From Deltaproteobacteria bacterium tcs-42 (lineage in GTDB: Bacteria; Desulfobacterota; Desulfuromonadia; Desulfuromonadales; Geopsychrobacteraceae): a stretch of 55,005 bases of DNA. The notes under the pieces are model-generated. The model was not told the origin of the DNA. It saw only the letters and a list, made by a program, of their open reading frames with translations, and ran no database searches. The position numbers and the translations under genes are program-made. Below, piece after piece: positions 32,426-41,349 of the stretch. Every line of letters starts with the position of its first letter. Position 1 is the first letter of the stretch. The stretch spans positions 1 through 55,005 of the forward strand of contig LLYT01000005.1 of NCBI GenBank assembly GCA_002049545.1, read 5' to 3'.

Positions 32426-32779
32426 ATGAGCACATTGAGCCCTTCAGACTCATTTCATTTTGGAAGAGAGGCACCGGTATTTGATATTGTAACGACGACG
32501 GCATGTTTGCACCACGATGTTACTGCCCTGTCTCTGGCTGGAACTAAAAAATGGTGGCTGCGTAAGATGCTCGAACGTTTTACCATGGCTCATCTTCCGT
32601 TGCCGATTGGTGAAATCAAACGAACCATCGAACAGCTTGCCGACGCTGTTATGGCGACTCATCGACTGATCCCTGACAATATTTCTGATCATCCTGAATT
32701 TCGTGAAGTTGGTAAAAATATGATGGGAATTTGGGAAGAGGGGGTCGGTGCTTGTAGTTTTTCAGGGGAGTGTCCCTAG
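32426..32779 (+). CDS. Hypothetical protein of about 117 aa with a 3' end inside a repeat
   Basis: Not recognised. The frame opens at ATG 32426 after a GGGGGG run; an ATG at 32408 is the alternative. The middle is a plausible soluble helical region (GTKKWWLRKMLERF, then IGEIKRTIEQLADAVMATHRL). The last seven residues (SFSGECP) come from the tandem repeat at 32754, so the original 3' end was probably replaced when that repeat arose. It is divergent from the efflux operon. It may be a truncated gene or may not be expressed. Confidence 0.35.
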   Translation: MSTLSPSDSFHFGREAPVFDIVTTTACLHHDVTALSLAGTKKWWLRKMLERFTMAHLPLPIGEIKRTIEQLADAVMATHRLIPDNISDHPEFREVGKNMMGIWEEGVGACSFSGECP

Positions 32780-32835
32780 TTTTCCGTAGTTTTTCAGGGG
32801 AGTGTCCCTAGTTTTCCTAGTTTTCCTAGTTTTCC
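32754..32835 (+). repeat. Tandem repeats: 2 x 32 bp, then 9-bp units
   Basis: Two identical 32-base units (32754-32785 and 32786-32817) contain CAGGGGAGTGTCCCTAG. They are followed by further copies of TAGTTTTCC (32818-32826 and 32827-32835), the same nine bases that end each 32-base unit. The GGGGA...TCCC core resembles the GGGACNGTCCC family. The array forms the 3' ends of two convergent frames. Confidence 0.85.
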
Positions 32836-33049: not shown

Positions 33050-33478
33050 TTATTTGTCTTCCAGGGGCAGGCCAGCATTTTTCCAGGCATGGTAGCCGCC
33101 GCGCAGGGCGCGGACGTCGGTATAGCCATGTTCATAGAGTTTGAGCGCCAAACTGGCGCTGGTCGCTTCATTCGGTCAGGTACAGTAGGTGACGACCGTT
33201 TGGTTCAGGGGAACGACAGCTTTCAGGGTTTCGATGTTGTCAGTGAAGCTGAAGCGGATCGCTCCTTCGACTTTCTGTTGGTCCCGGTGCCACTGACCCG
33301 GTGTGCGGGCGTCGATGACGGTTACCGCCTGGTTGCTGCGAAGTTGTTGCAGCTCTGCGGGTGTGGTCCGCGGCACTTCGCTGATCCGGGTGGGCAGAGA
33401 TATGGTGGCGGCAGAGGTGGCAAATAACAGTACAGAGAGGATTATCAACAGGGTGCTGATGGATTTTGGATTCCGCAT
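33050..33478 (-). CDS. Exported rhodanese-domain protein with in-frame TGA (candidate selenoprotein)
   Basis: Reading through the TGA at 33176-33178 gives a single 142-residue rhodanese protein. Residues 1-27 are a signal peptide or anchor (LLIILSVLLFATSAA). The rhodanese domain then runs from TPAELQQLRSNQAVTVIDAR to HAWKNAGLPLEDK and the stop TAA. The TGA falls two residues after the expected active-site Cys: YCT-U-PNEATSA, C99-T-U101. Homologues commonly read Cys at this point (YCxCPNEAT). Coding on both sides is in one frame and the family's C-terminal half (YTDVRALRGGYHAW) is intact, so decay is unlikely. A SECIS-like hairpin follows the TGA. AAGGAGG lies 6 bases before ATG 33478. The role is probably periplasmic sulfur or selenium transfer, or thiol redox chemistry. 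Confidence 0.85.
33144..33160 (-). promoter_or_regulatory. SECIS-like hairpin for selenocysteine insertion
   Basis: On the minus strand AGCGCC pairs with GGCGCT around the loop AGTTT. The loop begins 22 bases after the TGA (21 bases between) and has a G in its second position. Stem length, distance and loop G fit the general bacterial SECIS model; SelB binding itself is inferred. Confidence 0.65.
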
Positions 33479-33675
33479 AGCTGACCTCCTTGGTTATGTT
33501 GAAACTGATCATAACACAGCAGCGTCACAAAGTGTGAGGGGGGTGGCGTTTTTTAACGATAGTCCGTAGCAGATCAGCCTAACTTGATGGCGTAACAAAA
33601 ATTCCGGTTGAGATGCGTCCTGATCTCATGAATACTGGCCTGTGAATGGAATTTTTTTCAAAAAACTTATGTAAC

Positions 33676-34216: not shown

Positions 34217-34840
34217 TCAGACCTTGCGGTAAATGCTGATTTTACAGCTGGACCCTTCCTGCTGCAGATAGTCGGTGGTCATCTCGGCCATATTGGTCCA
34301 CAGCCCCTGTCGAACCAATTGATCCATGGCCAACTGGTAATCATCCTCGTCCCAGGCCTGATCACGCACCGTAAAACAGAGGATCCCCCCGGATCTGGTC
34401 ACCCGAATCAGTTCGCCAAAGGCCTCCGGTCCGACATGCCCGCAAGTGAAGGTGCCGACGCTGATCACGGCATCGAAACATGCCTCCGGCAGTTCCAGGG
34501 ACGCATTCAGATCCGCCTGATGCAGTTGCCGGTAGACCCCCTTCTCCCGCGCCTTGTCGAGCATATGCCGGGAATAATCGAGCCCTTCCAGGTTGTGATA
34601 GCCTTGCTGGTGCAGCAACTTACCGACGATCCCGGTGCCGCAGCCCGCATCCAGGGTCCGGGCCTGGGGATCGGTCAGGTAGGGCATCAGCTGTTCACAA
34701 GCCAGGGCCGGGGCGACATAGCCGAGTTCGTCGAGCAAGTCCTGGTCATAGCTCTCGGCCCATTCGGCATAAGCCGATGCCAGCTCATCCTTGTCGGTGG
34801 CATTGAGCACCCGCTCGTGGATTTCCTTGCGTTTTACCAT
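34217..34840 (-). CDS. Class I SAM-dependent methyltransferase
   Basis: Cytoplasmic methyltransferase of unknown substrate. The 207 residues show a helical lead (about 1-60), then the Rossmann fold: motif I LDAGCGTGIVG (about 65-75), motif II LEGLDYS, motif IV FDAVISVGTF and the post-I strand GGILCFTVRD. The Williams-Beuren/UbiE-like pattern of small-molecule methyltransferases fits best. Its codons are visibly more GC-rich than the flanking housekeeping genes, and it sits among gene remnants, which suggests acquisition from a GC-richer relative. Confidence 0.85.
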   Translation of the reverse strand: MVKRKEIHERVLNATDKDELASAYAEWAESYDQDLLDELGYVAPALACEQLMPYLTDPQARTLDAGCGTGIVGKLLHQQGYHNLEGLDYSRHMLDKAREKGVYRQLHQADLNASLELPEACFDAVISVGTFTCGHVGPEAFGELIRVTRSGGILCFTVRDQAWDEDDYQLAMDQLVRQGLWTNMAEMTTDYLQQEGSSCKISIYRKV

Positions 34841-34919: not shown

Positions 34920-35204
34920 TCAGGCGGCCTTGCGTGCCTCGGCCAGCCAGCCCTCCCAGGTCGCCCGGTTAGCTTCGATCCACTCCCGAGCGTGACGTTC
35001 GATATCCTCCTGCGATTTTTCCCCGTCTTTCATCCGGGTGTTTTGCGCGCTGACATCGGCCAGTTCGATCCGGAAGAGTTCGAAGAACTTTTTCGCCGCC
35101 GGATTCGCCGTCAGGAACTCCTTGTTGGCCACAATCCGCACGTCCGCAACAACAAAACCGGCCTTCAGCGGGTCATGGCGGAACGTCCAGGCAGACGTTG
35201 CCAA
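34920..35204 (-). pseudogene. C-terminal remnant of a ProX-like glycine betaine binding protein
   Basis: About 94 codons survive. From DPLKAGFVVADVRIVANKEF to IEANRATWEGWLAEAR the frame reads as the tail of the substrate-binding protein of a ProU-type osmoprotectant ABC transporter. The signal peptide and roughly the first two thirds (over 200 residues) are missing. No permease or ATPase gene adjoins it, and upstream sequence is AT-rich and unrelated. A deletion or transfer joint therefore lies near 35205. It is GC-rich like the methyltransferase next to it. Confidence 0.65.
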
Positions 35205-36008: not shown

Positions 36009-38378
36009 TTACTTGGTTACTGGCGCATGTTTCGCCATATTTTTCAGCATTTCATTCATTTTGTCCTGGTGCTCTTTCGGGTTCAGCATCCCTTCTTTGC
36101 TGACTTTCTGCCAGAGTTCAACTTCGCTCATATTCTGGTGGCAGCCCATACAGGTGTTCGGACGCAAGAACGTATCGAGCTCCTTCTTGTTGAAAGCTCG
36201 GCTTAGTGGCCAGTGACTACCCACTGTTGCTAGCTGTTCTCCTTCCCTTGTGACAATCTGTGACCAGTCAAAGTCCAGCTTCGGAATTGCCTGGATTTGA
36301 ACGCTGTGCTTGCCGGGAATAATCTCCCCGGTTTGTGCGTCAAGCAAATCGGCAACGTAGTTTTCGTGCTGTTTGGTACCGAACGTTCCATTGCCCAGGC
36401 CAAGACCTGCGACCTTGGCATTGCTATGACAACTTTCACAGGTTCTGGCTTTACGCTGGGCAGTATGTGGCTGTACTGGTGCCATGTCAATTGCCAGTGG
36501 AACATGCTCCTGTCCTACGTATTTGGCTTCATCGGGAGCATCAGCAATCATGTTATTGACAATAACTTCGCCAGTGTCGTCAACGACTGTGTATGTAACC
36601 TGACAGCCTGGCATGAGTGGACTGACCTTGCCTTCACCGCCGATACCAAGAACCGGATCTTCCCAGCGCAGGTAGGAGCGACTTTCCATTGATTTTCCGG
36701 CCACAAATGTACCACCGGAGCCAAGTTTTGATTCTGAGGTCTGACCTTGGGCATCACGAGTATTGCCCGAAGCGATCCAGTCTGTTGCCCCTTTTTGCTT
36801 ACCATCTTTACTGCTGTAGTCAACCTTGACGTGACAACCGTAACACTGCGGTGCCCAGGAAGCATGACAGGTATAGCATTCCATTTTTTCGAGGTGGCCA
36901 CTGATGGCATTCATGGCAACTTCACCAGACGGATCTTTCCAGGCATCGGCTTCATCGATCGCTTTAAGCCCGGCGACCTCAAAATCGTTTCCGGTGGCAG
37001 AGTGGACGATAACCTTGTTTCCGCGCCGGACGACATTGCCCAGGGGGTTACCGCGGGTAGAAAGGATGAAGCCGTCTTCTGCATCGTAGGGGTATCCGAA
37101 TTGCTGACCAGTATTCATCAGTTTATCTGCAACACCACGCGGTTTAGTCATCTCTTTACGGCCGAACTCATCGCCGTAACCGAGCGGCAGTTCCCAAGGG
37201 TATTTCTTAGGGGTACCATGGCAATCGGTACACTCTATTTCAACCTGTCCCATAGTGGTTCCATGGATATTTCCATCGCCATGCATATCGATACTGGTAT
37301 GGCAATCCTGACAGAGCAATCCCCCTTCCGGGTTGCCTTTACGGCTTTGCTGCTGATGATGCAGATCATCTGAAATAAACATGTACTTTTTGGTATGAAG
37401 TTTAGGTTGTTTTCCCCCATCTTCGTTATACGGAGACCCGTAGGGGAACTCCATCAGTCCCTGATAAGAGACGCCGATCCGCTTACCGCGGTTGTGGCAG
37501 GAATTACAGGTTTCTACCGGGATTCCGTCGGTCTTGCGATTACCGACAATTTGGTGCTTAAGCATATGTCCCGGCTCGTCTTTTTTGATACTCTTATCAT
37601 TACCTTCATAGAAACCATCATTGCTGTAAAGAATATGACAGGCTGAACAGCCCATGCCTCGGTAATCACCGCGTTTTTCCCGACCACGAACACCAATGTG
37701 ACAGCGGTTACAGTCGGTACGCTGATAAGTCATGGCAGCTAATTTGGGATCAGCCTTGACCTCATCAACGGTTGGATTCGGCATTTGTTGCAAACTTTTC
37801 GGATACTGCTTTGGATACATGGCGATCTGATCCTTCATGTAAGCCCTGTATTCCTCGGTTCCCACAATTGGCACTTGGGAATCTATATCTTCTGCATCAT
37901 AGTTCCCGTAGGGGTTGTTAAAGTCCGCGGCCTCTTTAATTCCCCAAGTATGCAAGTTTCCAGAGATTTTTCCCGTTTCTGTATTCATCAGTGAAAGTTC
38001 TGCACGATAGCCATAGCCAACGTGACAGGCGCCACAGGTGTTCTCCGCAATCCAGATCGAACCAGGATCGGGATAATATTCCTTGGGGCCGGGTGCCATC
38101 CGCAATGTTGCCGGAATCCCCTTATGGGCTTCTTCTTTTTTTGTTGCTTTTGGATTTCCGCCGTGGCACATGACACAGCCATCGGGGTCGCCATGCATTT
38201 GACCGTTCATCTTGAGCTGCTTAGCCATCTGCAGGTCTGGTGGCACAATCTCTTCTATTCCGGCGTGGCAGTCGGCGGTTGTACATCCACCGGTCCAATC
38301 TGCGGCGTATGCCGTTGAACCGAAGAAGAGTGTGGCCACACTGGCCATTGTTAACAACGTCAACATTTTTTTAAGCAC
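36009..38378 (-). CDS. 12-heme periplasmic c-type cytochrome
   Basis: Exported electron-transfer or reductase protein. The 789 residues begin with a signal peptide ending ...STAYAAD. Eleven CxxCH motifs are visible: CVMCH, CGACH, CNRCH, CSACH, CNSCH, CQDCH, CTDCH, CYTCH, CYGCH, CESCH and CMGCH. In addition there is one CX4CH, the first site, CTTADCH near residue 31, for 12 hemes in all. The long heme-free stretch between CYGCH and CESCH could be a substrate or partner domain. The N-terminal part recalls octaheme tetrathionate-reductase-like cytochromes. Its operon partners (NrfD, NrfC-like and tetraheme subunits) suggest that it receives electrons from menaquinol. The acceptor is unknown: sulfur oxyanion, metal or another cytochrome. 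A terminator follows. Confidence 0.9.
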   Translation of the reverse strand: MLKKMLTLLTMASVATLFFGSTAYAADWTGGCTTADCHAGIEEIVPPDLQMAKQLKMNGQMHGDPDGCVMCHGGNPKATKKEEAHKGIPATLRMAPGPKEYYPDPGSIWIAENTCGACHVGYGYRAELSLMNTETGKISGNLHTWGIKEAADFNNPYGNYDAEDIDSQVPIVGTEEYRAYMKDQIAMYPKQYPKSLQQMPNPTVDEVKADPKLAAMTYQRTDCNRCHIGVRGREKRGDYRGMGCSACHILYSNDGFYEGNDKSIKKDEPGHMLKHQIVGNRKTDGIPVETCNSCHNRGKRIGVSYQGLMEFPYGSPYNEDGGKQPKLHTKKYMFISDDLHHQQQSRKGNPEGGLLCQDCHTSIDMHGDGNIHGTTMGQVEIECTDCHGTPKKYPWELPLGYGDEFGRKEMTKPRGVADKLMNTGQQFGYPYDAEDGFILSTRGNPLGNVVRRGNKVIVHSATGNDFEVAGLKAIDEADAWKDPSGEVAMNAISGHLEKMECYTCHASWAPQCYGCHVKVDYSSKDGKQKGATDWIASGNTRDAQGQTSESKLGSGGTFVAGKSMESRSYLRWEDPVLGIGGEGKVSPLMPGCQVTYTVVDDTGEVIVNNMIADAPDEAKYVGQEHVPLAIDMAPVQPHTAQRKARTCESCHSNAKVAGLGLGNGTFGTKQHENYVADLLDAQTGEIIPGKHSVQIQAIPKLDFDWSQIVTREGEQLATVGSHWPLSRAFNKKELDTFLRPNTCMGCHQNMSEVELWQKVSKEGMLNPKEHQDKMNEMLKNMAKHAPVTK

Positions 38379-38474
38379 GATTACCTCCCTTTCACTGGTG
38401 CAAGTATTGACTTGTTCTCATCTGAGATCATCCAGCCTGATTCAGAGGAGAACACCTCTTATTCAGGGCAACAA

Positions 38475-39689
38475 TTAATTACTATTCTTTCTGTGGCAGA
38501 GTTGCCCATTGATAATCGGGACCGCAATTTTCAGCAGCGCCGTATAAATCAATAATCCGAAAGCCAGGATACCGAAACAGACCGTTAATTCATTAAATGT
38601 GGGTTGATACTGAACAAAGTCACCAAGGGGGGTTGGAATAAAACCGGAGATAACAAAGCCCAGCCCCTTTTCAACCCAGATACCGACAACAATCATCACA
38701 CAAGCGACATTTAAAAGCCGCGGGTTCTCTCTGGCCGGCAAGAGTAAAATAGCCGCAGCAATGATATTCAGAGCAACGGCTGACCAGATCCAGGGTGCCA
38801 GAACACTTTTCCCGTGGAATCCAAGTAAAAAGCTCAAGTGGATAGAATGTTCTGAACCGGAGTAAAGTTCAGTAAAAAGCTCTGATCCAAACAATAGCAA
38901 GTTGATCAATAAGCTTACGGTAACAATAATCCGAATCTTGGCAATAACATCCTTGTGAATTGTGCAACACTTGAAATATTCCATAAGTTTAAAGACCAGA
39001 ATGATAAATGCCGGGCCGGCCGCAAAAGCTGACGCAAGGAAGCGGGGGGCTATCAAACCGCTGTGCCAGAAAGGTCTGGCGGCCAACCCCTGAAACAGAA
39101 ATGCGGTGATAGTATGAATCAGAGGGGCCCAGGCAATAGCAAGAAAAACTATCGGAACATAATGGCGCGTTACCAGTTTTTGTCCCTTATATTTTTTGTA
39201 GAGCACATAACCACAAACGTAGAGATTGAGGAAAAGGTATCCGTTTAATACCAGGGCATCCCAGGTCAGCATTGACATTGGCCAGTTGAAGACACCGATC
39301 ACAGGAAGCATATGCCAGAGACGGTCAGGACGACCCATGTCTGCAGTAATAAAGAGGAGACACATGATCAGGGCGGCAATGGCCCAAAGCTCGGTGAAAA
39401 TAACGACTTTGTGGATTTCCTCATCTTTGAAAATATAAGCCGGTATCACCATCATGACTGCTGCTGCAGCCATACCGACCAGAAAAGCGAAATTGGAAAT
39501 ATAGAGTCCCCAGGAAATTTCATCTCCCATTCCGGTTGTGTACAAGCCATGAGCCAACTGACGGCTGAAAGCATTGAGTCCAATCAAGCTGATGGCAATC
39601 AGAGCAAACATCCAGAGGGCGTAAGTCCGATTGCCAATCAGAATTGTTTTTGCCAGATCACTAATAATTCCTGAGGAATCTTTATTCAT
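38475..39689 (-). CDS. NrfD/PsrC-family quinol-binding membrane subunit
   Basis: Integral membrane subunit of a menaquinone-linked oxidoreductase. The 404 residues have nine or ten transmembrane helices (first about 22-42, WMFALIAISLIGLNAFSRQL), the pattern of NrfD/PolysulfideC proteins. Such subunits bind quinol near the periplasmic side and pass electrons to the Fe-S partner; some translocate protons. The gene lies 50 bases after the Fe-S subunit and 96 before the large cytochrome, all co-directional. Confidence 0.9.
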   Translation of the reverse strand: MNKDSSGIISDLAKTILIGNRTYALWMFALIAISLIGLNAFSRQLAHGLYTTGMGDEISWGLYISNFAFLVGMAAAAVMMVIPAYIFKDEEIHKVVIFTELWAIAALIMCLLFITADMGRPDRLWHMLPVIGVFNWPMSMLTWDALVLNGYLFLNLYVCGYVLYKKYKGQKLVTRHYVPIVFLAIAWAPLIHTITAFLFQGLAARPFWHSGLIAPRFLASAFAAGPAFIILVFKLMEYFKCCTIHKDVIAKIRIIVTVSLLINLLLFGSELFTELYSGSEHSIHLSFLLGFHGKSVLAPWIWSAVALNIIAAAILLLPARENPRLLNVACVMIVVGIWVEKGLGFVISGFIPTPLGDFVQYQPTFNELTVCFGILAFGLLIYTALLKIAVPIINGQLCHRKNSN

Positions 39690-39739
39690 TGCTTGGCCCT
39701 TTTGACGGTTGTTGACAGACTCAAACTGCTTTCAGCCAA

Positions 39740-40690
39740 CTATTTAGCAAAAGTGTAATAAAATTTGGGTAAAGTACCGGCCTCTTGTTTGAGGACAAAG
39801 ACCCTTTCCTGTTCAATGATTTTACGAACTTCACTCTCAGGGTCTCTCAGGTTTCCAAACTTCCGGGAACCAGTCGGGCAGACTTCCATACAGGCTGGAT
39901 ATTCTCCTCGACGGGTTTTGTGCAGGCAGAAAGTACATTTTTCCATAACCCCCATGTAGCGGGGTCGGTTGGAAAGATAACCCATATCGGGATTCAGTTC
40001 CTGTGCGGAAATTTGAGGTTTTGCAAAATTGAAACGTCTGGCGTGGTAAGGGCAGGCTGCTTCACAATAACGACAACCGATACACCAGTTGTAATCCACA
40101 ACAACAATCCCATCCTTCTCTTTCCAGGTGGCTTTGACCGGACAAACTTCAATACATTTTGGTTCACGACATTGCTGACAGGCGACCGGCATATAAAAGA
40201 AGTCTTCGCTGGATGCTTCTTTTTCGGGATAGTCATGATTTGATGTTTCCAGATTGACTGTTCCCTGTTTCATCTTCAGAACCCTGATGTACTGTTTCTG
40301 CGGGCTTCGAGATTGATTGTTCTCATTCATGCAGGCGTAAACACATTTTCGGCAACCGATACAGCGCCCGAGATTAAGAACATAAGCAAACTCAACCCCC
40401 TCAATGGGTTGAGTATCAGAAATTGTTGCCGCCACACCATATTGTTTGTCTATTCCGGCTTCGAGCTTGGCAAAGATTTCTTTTTTGTCCTCATCACTTA
40501 GCTGCTTGTAATGTTTCTGGATAAATTCATCCGTGGAGGGAACTTCCTCAGCATTGAGAAGAGGTGAAAGCGAAACCACCGTAGCAGCAGACAAGCAGGC
40601 TGCTCCCGCAAGAAAATATCGACGGCTGATGGTTGGTTGCTGCTGGTCCTCGTTCTCCATCTCATTGTTTCTTTTCTCTTCCGTACTCAT
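39740..40690 (-). CDS. NrfC-like four-cluster ferredoxin subunit with Tat signal
   Basis: Periplasmic electron-transfer subunit with 316 residues. A Tat-type signal is visible near residues 20-50 (ISRRYFLAGAA, twin Arg, then a hydrophobic core). Four [4Fe-4S] sites follow: CIGCRKCVYAC, CQQCREPKCIEVCP, CIGCRYCEAACP and CTFCLHKTRRGEYPACMEVCP. Those 16 cysteines are typical of NrfC/PsrB/HybA proteins. It would bridge the NrfD quinol site and the c-type hemes. Its ATG overlaps the tetraheme gene's TGA (TGATG). Confidence 0.93.
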   Translation of the reverse strand: MSTEEKRNNEMENEDQQQPTISRRYFLAGAACLSAATVVSLSPLLNAEEVPSTDEFIQKHYKQLSDEDKKEIFAKLEAGIDKQYGVAATISDTQPIEGVEFAYVLNLGRCIGCRKCVYACMNENNQSRSPQKQYIRVLKMKQGTVNLETSNHDYPEKEASSEDFFYMPVACQQCREPKCIEVCPVKATWKEKDGIVVVDYNWCIGCRYCEAACPYHARRFNFAKPQISAQELNPDMGYLSNRPRYMGVMEKCTFCLHKTRRGEYPACMEVCPTGSRKFGNLRDPESEVRKIIEQERVFVLKQEAGTLPKFYYTFAK

Positions 40691-41349
40691 CAGAATCTCT
40701 CCTGGATAGATTCAGTCAAATATGCCGATTTCGGGTCATCATTCGGATGTCTGACCTTGCGGAGTGTTTTGTCTGGCCAGGTTGGTGCCGGTGCGGCAAT
40801 CTTGTACTTGAATTTCGGAGAATGTGGGTCGTGACATTCGGTGCAGGTGAAATTGACGGGCTCTTCGCCGGCTTTGATCATCCAGCGTCCCTGCCTCAGG
40901 CCATGAGTTCCAGCCAGCCAGTCACGAACAATAATGCCGTGACAACGGGCACAGAGTTTCTCAGGAGTTGCAAATGGAATCGTTGTTTCTCCGTCACCGG
41001 CAAGGCTATCGCGATTATAAATGTGATGGCAGTTGTAACAACGATCATTGACACCGTGGTCTAACTTGACAGTTGGATGGGCAAATTGTGGCCGTATCAG
41101 CTCTGGATCGGGAATTTGAACACTGTGACAGATGAAGCAATTTCCCGGCATAACGGTATTGACCAGAATCTCTCCACGTGCAGTTTCCGGGGTATACCAT
41201 TCTGCATTCAGAGGTGCGGCCTCCGGAATTTCTGGTTTATTATCGCCCCACAGAAAGAAAATAAGGATAAGGATACCAGTTCCGGGCAGGATAATTTTCT
41301 TCCAGAACTCACCCTGGTTAAAATGAGATTTTTTCTTGTTTTTTCCCAT
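40690..41349 (-). CDS. Membrane-anchored tetraheme cytochrome c
   Basis: First gene of the operon; 219 residues. A basic N-terminus and one hydrophobic segment (about 18-37, ILPGTGILILIFFLW) anchor it with the heme domain outside. Four CxxCH motifs are visible: CFICH, CYNCH, CARCH and CTECH, with extra His before or after them (HSVQ, HHI) as likely distal ligands. The small NapC-adjacent/NrfB-like cytochromes of Cbc-type quinol oxidoreductases are comparable. It probably takes electrons from the NrfCD pair and hands them to the 12-heme protein. Confidence 0.9.
   Translation of the reverse strand: MGKNKKKSHFNQGEFWKKIILPGTGILILIFFLWGDNKPEIPEAAPLNAEWYTPETARGEILVNTVMPGNCFICHSVQIPDPELIRPQFAHPTVKLDHGVNDRCYNCHHIYNRDSLAGDGETTIPFATPEKLCARCHGIIVRDWLAGTHGLRQGRWMIKAGEEPVNFTCTECHDPHSPKFKYKIAAPAPTWPDKTLRKVRHPNDDPKSAYLTESIQERF

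Follow-up and report, generated by a model that had tools for sequence, protein, structure and literature searches.

An in-frame TGA almost certainly read as selenocysteine in a rhodanese gene with a C-x-U site

The locus described here raises the question of whether a TGA codon lying inside a rhodanese frame ends a short protein or is read as selenocysteine (Sec, U). The gene belongs to a 55,005-nucleotide stretch of DNA, hereafter the window, and runs along the minus strand from 33478 to 33050, from an ATG to a TAA, over 142 residues. The sole break in this frame is the TGA at 33178-33176, corresponding to residue 101. A preliminary description of the DNA had placed the interruption at the same three bases without stating the strand, and had foreseen that an automatic caller would truncate the gene; a mechanical ORF call does stop at the TGA, leaving 100 residues. 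The features of the locus are the following.

33050 to 33478, minus strand: whole gene, a single-domain rhodanese, probably exported, with putative selenocysteine at residue 101 and a TAA stop (sequence, Pfam).
33176 to 33178, minus strand: in-frame TGA, residue 101, taken as selenocysteine (sequence and conservation in relatives).
33182 to 33184, minus strand: TGT codon of Cys99, at the position of the rhodanese catalytic cysteine (alignment to 3tp9, sequence).
33144 to 33160, minus strand: SECIS-type hairpin shortly 3' of the TGA, with GU in the loop (covariation and folding).
33074 to 33364, minus strand: rhodanese domain, residues 39-135 (Pfam match, predicted fold).
33407 to 33478, minus strand: probable signal peptide, about residues 1-24 (composition and a predicted helix at residues 7-21).
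33485 to 33491, minus strand: AAGGAGG, a ribosome-binding-like motif 5' of the ATG (sequence).

The N-terminus is hydrophobic and resembles a signal peptide, which suggests that the rhodanese is probably exported. Upstream on the same strand, some 740 bases separate the rhodanese gene from the preceding one, which ends at 34217. The strand of the rhodanese gene shows neither a promoter-like nor a terminator-like site; a single promoter-like site was detected, on the plus strand.

Translated through the TGA, with C put for U, the product matches the rhodanese family PF00581 over residues 39-135 with 56.6 bits, well above the gathering cut-off of 22.2, so that the complete domain announced in the preliminary description is indeed present. 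PF02662 (FlpD) was also considered as a family, and the profile search gave no match. A structure was predicted from an alignment of 25 read-through sequences including that of the window, with U passed as C; the model has a mean pLDDT of 91.4 and a rhodanese fold. Among solved rhodaneses, GlpE came first (Z 16.3, rmsd 1.9, 106 aligned residues), tied with 3tp9 at 16.1. A profile alignment matches Y98-C99 to the Y-C that opens the active-site loop of 3tp9. The protein thus shares the fold of GlpE and of other single-domain rhodaneses but differs from them in this loop, which holds Sec101 and, counted up to a following S-A, exceeds that of the solved relative 3tp9 by two residues. To our knowledge, GlpE itself contains no selenocysteine.

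The TGA might be a true stop, in which case the gene would be decaying or would encode a truncated rhodanese of 100 residues. The end of the mechanical ORF at this codon agrees with such a reading, as does the use of TGA as a normal stop by the host, where it terminates 16 of the 36 larger ORFs picked in the window. However, the sequence beyond the TGA holds residues that are invariant in 20 aligned sequences from the relatives search described next (E104, S107, A108, G118, L125, G127, G128 and W132), and the codon itself is widely conserved. The read-through protein was searched against 147 genomes, its own included, of which 83 contained a match with an E value no higher than 1e-8. The best 56 matches listed, down to E 5.6e-16 and counting that of the window, all carry a TGA, one of them together with a TAA; stop-free matches begin at rank 57. 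The DNA was read at 29 loci besides that of the window, and in each of these 30 the TGA occupies the same Y-C-x-TGA place, with an intact domain downstream. A TGA is therefore present throughout the best 56 matches listed, and at the 30 loci read it is confirmed as the conserved UGA expected of a bacterial selenoprotein.

The pattern T-Y-C-T-TGA-x-x-E was scanned separately over named genomes, with the first two bases of codon +7 fixed as GC, and with the choice between AGY and TCN at codon +6 and the third base of codon +7 left free. It was found at no fewer than 120 places on at least 119 stretches, in several phyla. Each of the 120 places listed is a rhodanese according to a profile of the first 30 loci (E at most 1.4e-19), and the 80 record titles listed are dominated by Chloroflexi (Anaerolineae and others), Acidobacteria and Deltaproteobacteria, a few naming other groups. 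The two samples overlap, since certain genomes contribute both to the 120 places and to the 30 loci. Because the same TGA recurs in many separately assembled genomes, chance is excluded, as is a read error at 33176-33178, the objection raised in the preliminary description. We regard the true stop as ruled out for practical purposes by the same conservation, with a very small residual probability.

Alternatively, the UGA might be read through as another amino acid, by a reassigned code or by a near-cognate suppressor. The frame stays open whichever way the TGA is read, as this explanation demands. A reassigned code is rejected because TGA ends the 16 window ORFs counted above in the normal way, and the genome offers a complete selenocysteine machinery instead. 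This genome (2.55 Mb in 121 contigs, listed as 100% complete) was searched for the four genes that the preliminary description had proposed as a check, and all of them score above curated cut-offs: tRNA-Sec (selC) at 71.2 bits against a gathering score of 47, selB at 356.9 against 242.25, selA at 586.4 against 267.9, and selD at 361.1 against 125. When 14 control genomes were searched, tRNA-Sec was above cut-off in five, selB in two, selA in one and selD in two; the tRNA-Sec model is thus the least strict of the four. Of 18 genomes with the pattern, chosen from the 119 or more stretches, 15 gave SelB above cut-off and three did not. The selA, selB and selD genes of the window's genome adjoin each other on one contig (C66, 3550-7861), and one in-frame TGA lies inside selD.

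As a rule, bacterial SECIS elements are located just downstream of the UGA and carry a G in the loop. The window has a hairpin at exactly 33160-33144, its first base 18 nucleotides past the first base of the UGA, where the preliminary description had noticed a SECIS-like hairpin at the right distance. Folded alone, it reaches -10.9 kcal/mol, and 19 of 200 shuffled sequences fold as well; with an unremarkable z of -1.37, the energy by itself was not accepted as evidence. The hairpin is considered real because it is conserved across relatives, not because of its energy. Conservation was assessed on 176 sequences, comprising 30 from the relatives search, 120 from the pattern and 26 of the 30 loci obtained with the NCBIfam model NF041203 (see below), the remaining four, which have two TGAs, being left out; 172 of the 176 are distinct over 54 bases. 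Of these 172, 171 have AGY at codon +6 and 168 have GCC at codon +7. Each of five stem pairs forms in 164-172 sequences, all five form together in 159, and the loop reads GU in 155. A sixth pair, formed in the window, is possible in just 62.

The facing third bases of codons +6 and +10 are silent, and in the 172 sequences they read C-G in 122, T-A in 36, T-G in eight, C-A in three, C-C in two and C-T in one. The 30 loci that were not chosen by the pattern give 16 C-G, ten T-A, four T-G and no mismatch. The third base of codon +6 is associated with that of codon +10 with an odds ratio of 139 (p 8e-25). Its association with 12 other codons (+7 to +9 left out) is weak or absent, the lowest p being 0.0055 at codon +12, and codon +14 gives p 0.042 in the opposite sense; general base composition is therefore not the cause. 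Relatedness is the weak point of this evidence, as a tree-based count on starred branches is under-powered: it yields eight independent pairs, of which on average 4.5 change the same way and 0.0 the opposite way, with a median p of 0.0625. Homologues with Cys are of little use as a control, since most of them differ in the amino acids at the hairpin codons. A SECIS element, a further mark of a bacterial selenoprotein, is thus supported by compensating silent changes, and the hairpin of the preliminary description stands in both position and conservation. The pairing at silent sites speaks against a true stop, and a conserved hairpin with a GU loop against the insertion of another amino acid.

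The residue found at the Sec site in homologues bears on the same point. Among 25 stop-free homologues, 12 carry Cys there, as C-x-C (7 of the 20 from a homologue search and all five from plasmids), and 13 carry Ser, Ala or another residue. The 13 would be consistent with another amino acid at the UGA; the 12 argue against it, and the replacement of Sec by Cys is itself expected for a bacterial selenoprotein. Taken with the machinery and the hairpin, this makes decoding as another amino acid the least probable reading that we considered. Eight stop-free matches stand above the NF041203 cut-off among the matches listed, two with Cys (L200 and L201) and six with Ser (L202-L207). The first Cys of the motif is kept in five of these six (L202-L206), and L207 has Ser there too. 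The statement of the preliminary description that homologues carry Cys at this place is therefore true for part of the close relatives only. Four of the Ser copies (L202, L205, L206 and L207) occur in genomes that also hold a TGA copy (G332, G354 and G434). On the evidence of the conserved TGA, the hairpin and the presence of selA, selB, selD and tRNA-Sec, we conclude from comparative sequence data that the UGA is almost certainly read as selenocysteine, in agreement with the candidate C-x-U selenoprotein first proposed.

Some relatives go further. Among the matches listed in the NF041203 search, all 12 that have two TGAs and no other stop read Y-U-x-U (L059, L065, L069, L080 and L225-L232), so that the codon of the catalytic Cys is also TGA. 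These loci are distributed over six bacterial families according to the assignment of the search code, and the starred branches of the 119-row tree (see below) force at least four changes of the U-x-U state.

NF041203, named 'rhodanese_LYCAU' and described as a rhodanese-related (seleno)protein, is the NCBIfam model closest to the window protein (E 1.1e-30). The score of 105.9 bits remains below the equivalog cut-off of 115. Of 20 relatives scanned with the same model, 17 are below the cut-off and three above it (L033, L040 and L126), L126 being the single one of these with T-Y-C-T-U. A search of 395 genomes of the phylum with NF041203 returned 60 with a match above the cut-off. A tree was computed from 119 chosen rows, namely 30 from the relatives search, 41 from the pattern, 30 from the NF041203 search, ten C-x-C proteins and eight further two-TGA proteins; it was obtained by a quick method from 127 columns, which are few, and has many open forks. 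A starred clade of 48 rows gathers 26 of the 26 rows labelled NF041203, 11 of 12 U-x-U, nine of 11 x-Y-C-x-U and two of ten C-x-C. All 60 T-Y-C-T-U rows, that of the window protein included, are outside this clade, a placement to be read with the caveat that L126 is above the cut-off and yet outside, and with that of the U-x-U rows. The end branch of the window protein is long (0.67).

The window protein has the same C-x-U site as NF041203 members, and of the 26 members with a single TGA that were read, 24 show the hairpin codons AGY GCC; the window protein differs from them by having T-Y-C-T-U where the name of the model has L-Y-C-A-U. C-x-C rhodaneses share a CPNE-like loop with it, with Cys replacing Sec at the same site. 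The one annotated case among them, a 'DedA family protein/thiosulfate sulfurtransferase GlpE' of Xanthomonas, has its C-x-C rhodanese joined to a membrane domain.

Rhodaneses with a C-x-U site are already on record. In the available portions of two reviews, they are entered under NF041203 as 'Rhodanese-like domain-containing protein form 3, CxU' (PMC13188914) and as 'COG0607 form 2' (PMC9312934), both with TKB26178.1 as the example, and neither set of rhodanese entries includes a U-x-U motif. Excerpts of other papers count rhodanese-type selenoproteins in the Sargasso Sea (PMC1088965), in ocean sampling (PMC2398784) and in later surveys (PMC5029168), and name 'a rhodanese-like domain' among the Sec proteins of a marine deltaproteobacterium (PMC8318568). 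Desulfuromonas acetoxidans is credited with six selenoproteins, with no rhodanese among them in the accessible text (PMC1794560). ExtH of Geobacter sulfurreducens, a rhodanese-like protein from a related lineage, adjoins the predicted selenoprotein ExtKL (PMC5877670, in extract); unlike the window protein, it is a 49 kDa protein within a cytochrome cluster, and Sec is predicted in its neighbour ExtKL, not in ExtH. The extracts consulted of PMC5877670, PMC13188914, PMC1088965, PMC9312934, PMC1794560, PMC5029168, PMC3543383, PMC2398784, PMC8318568 and PMC5322559 make no mention of a T-Y-C-T-U group or of a U-x-U rhodanese, which is no proof of absence, and the parts of the selenoprotein literature covered show no function for a C-x-U rhodanese. 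The Cys-Sec pair had been called uncommon in an exported rhodanese; this was half right, given the reviews and the many C-x-U rhodaneses found here. Because these reviews and NF041203 cover C-x-U rhodaneses, and because the window protein is below the cut-off and outside the clade, we place it as a selenoprotein that is an outlying member of an already known group, as judged from its sequence.

The overall reading that we favor, with a probability of about 0.88, is that hairpin-driven, SelB-dependent readthrough of the UGA yields a full rhodanese selenoprotein that is exported and most likely carries a Cys99-Sec101 pair. The hairpin would recruit SelB carrying Sec-tRNA-Sec, the UGA would be read as Sec, and the full rhodanese domain would then be made, a step for which the comparison with relatives gives good support. 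The protein would be exported, to judge from its N-terminus. Cys99 holds the position of the persulfide-forming Cys of rhodaneses, with Sec101 two residues further on in the lengthened loop, and the two would most likely form a selenylsulfide pair. Cys99 might take sulfane sulfur or become oxidised, Sec101 would attack and resolve the product, and a thiol partner would reset the pair. Whether such a pair acts on sulfane sulfur or disulfides, as opposed to plain sulfur transfer or other chemistry, we put at about even odds.

Another possibility is that the selenoprotein simply transfers sulfur (or selenium), with Sec doing no more than tune the catalytic Cys and without any redox pair. The rhodanese fold, the Cys at its canonical place and the retention of the first Cys in L202-L206 would fit this alternative. 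Against it, the loop has two residues more than that of 3tp9, and the U-x-U relatives and the C-x-C forms resemble paired redox sites; the occurrence of U-x-U at all 12 loci is easier to reconcile with a two-centre pair than with a single Cys and a bystander. The neighbourhood of the gene in six relatives provides another hint, towards oxidative repair. In six of the 30 loci (L020, L021, L022, L023, L026 and L027), an MsrA gene with a TGA at its G-U-F-W site (ALG-U-FWG) is convergent with the rhodanese gene; its end abuts that of the rhodanese in L022, L026 and L027 and is about 0.8-0.9 kb away in L020, L021 and L023. L146 and L174 have the same MsrA genes as L027 and L022. The MsrA proteins of L022, L026 and L027, whose N-terminus lies within the stretch, look exported or membrane-bound by sequence. 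The convergent Sec-type MsrA hints at a repair or redox role shared with the rhodanese. This link is limited to relatives, since the window has no MsrA (no G-C/stop-F-W motif in an MsrA context was found in it) and both MsrA genes present in its genome are free of in-frame stops. We consider the plain transferase a tenable reading with less than even chances.

Under the favored reading of a Cys99-Sec101 selenoprotein, what a mechanical caller truncates is the gene of a whole selenoenzyme open to experimental test, and the surrounding lineage extends beyond what the NF041203 cut-off lets in. A bolder proposal, tentative and on the whole rather unlikely, is that T-Y-C-T-U rhodaneses constitute a large selenoprotein lineage, spanning at least Desulfuromonadales, Acidobacteriota and Chloroflexota and mostly missed by NF041203, and that C-x-U proteins and their U-x-U relatives, instead of acting as sulfurtransferases, reduce sulfane sulfur or disulfides by forming a selenylsulfide or a diselenide. 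Three points deserve to be followed, namely how broad the lineage is, its scores below the curated cut-off, and the U-x-U forms, and C-x-C, C-x-U and U-x-U on one scaffold offer a natural series for testing the contribution of selenium to rhodanese chemistry.

Other features were observed in the window. At 32755-32835, TAGTTTTTCAGGGGAGTGTCCCTAGTTTTCC occurs twice and is followed by more TAGTTTTCC units, at the end of a plus-strand ORF of 123 aa without a Pfam match. On the minus strand, 34920-35204 encodes what remains of the C-terminus of a glycine-betaine-type binding protein (positions 193-256 of the 257 in the OpuAC profile), with in-frame stops upstream, and 54857-54942 matches an Rfam group II intron with 45.9 bits against a gathering score of 40. 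Finally, four minus-strand genes at 36009-41349 encode a multihaem cytochrome, an NrfD-like membrane protein, a 4Fe-4S protein and a small multihaem-type protein, a cluster that looks like a respiratory reductase.
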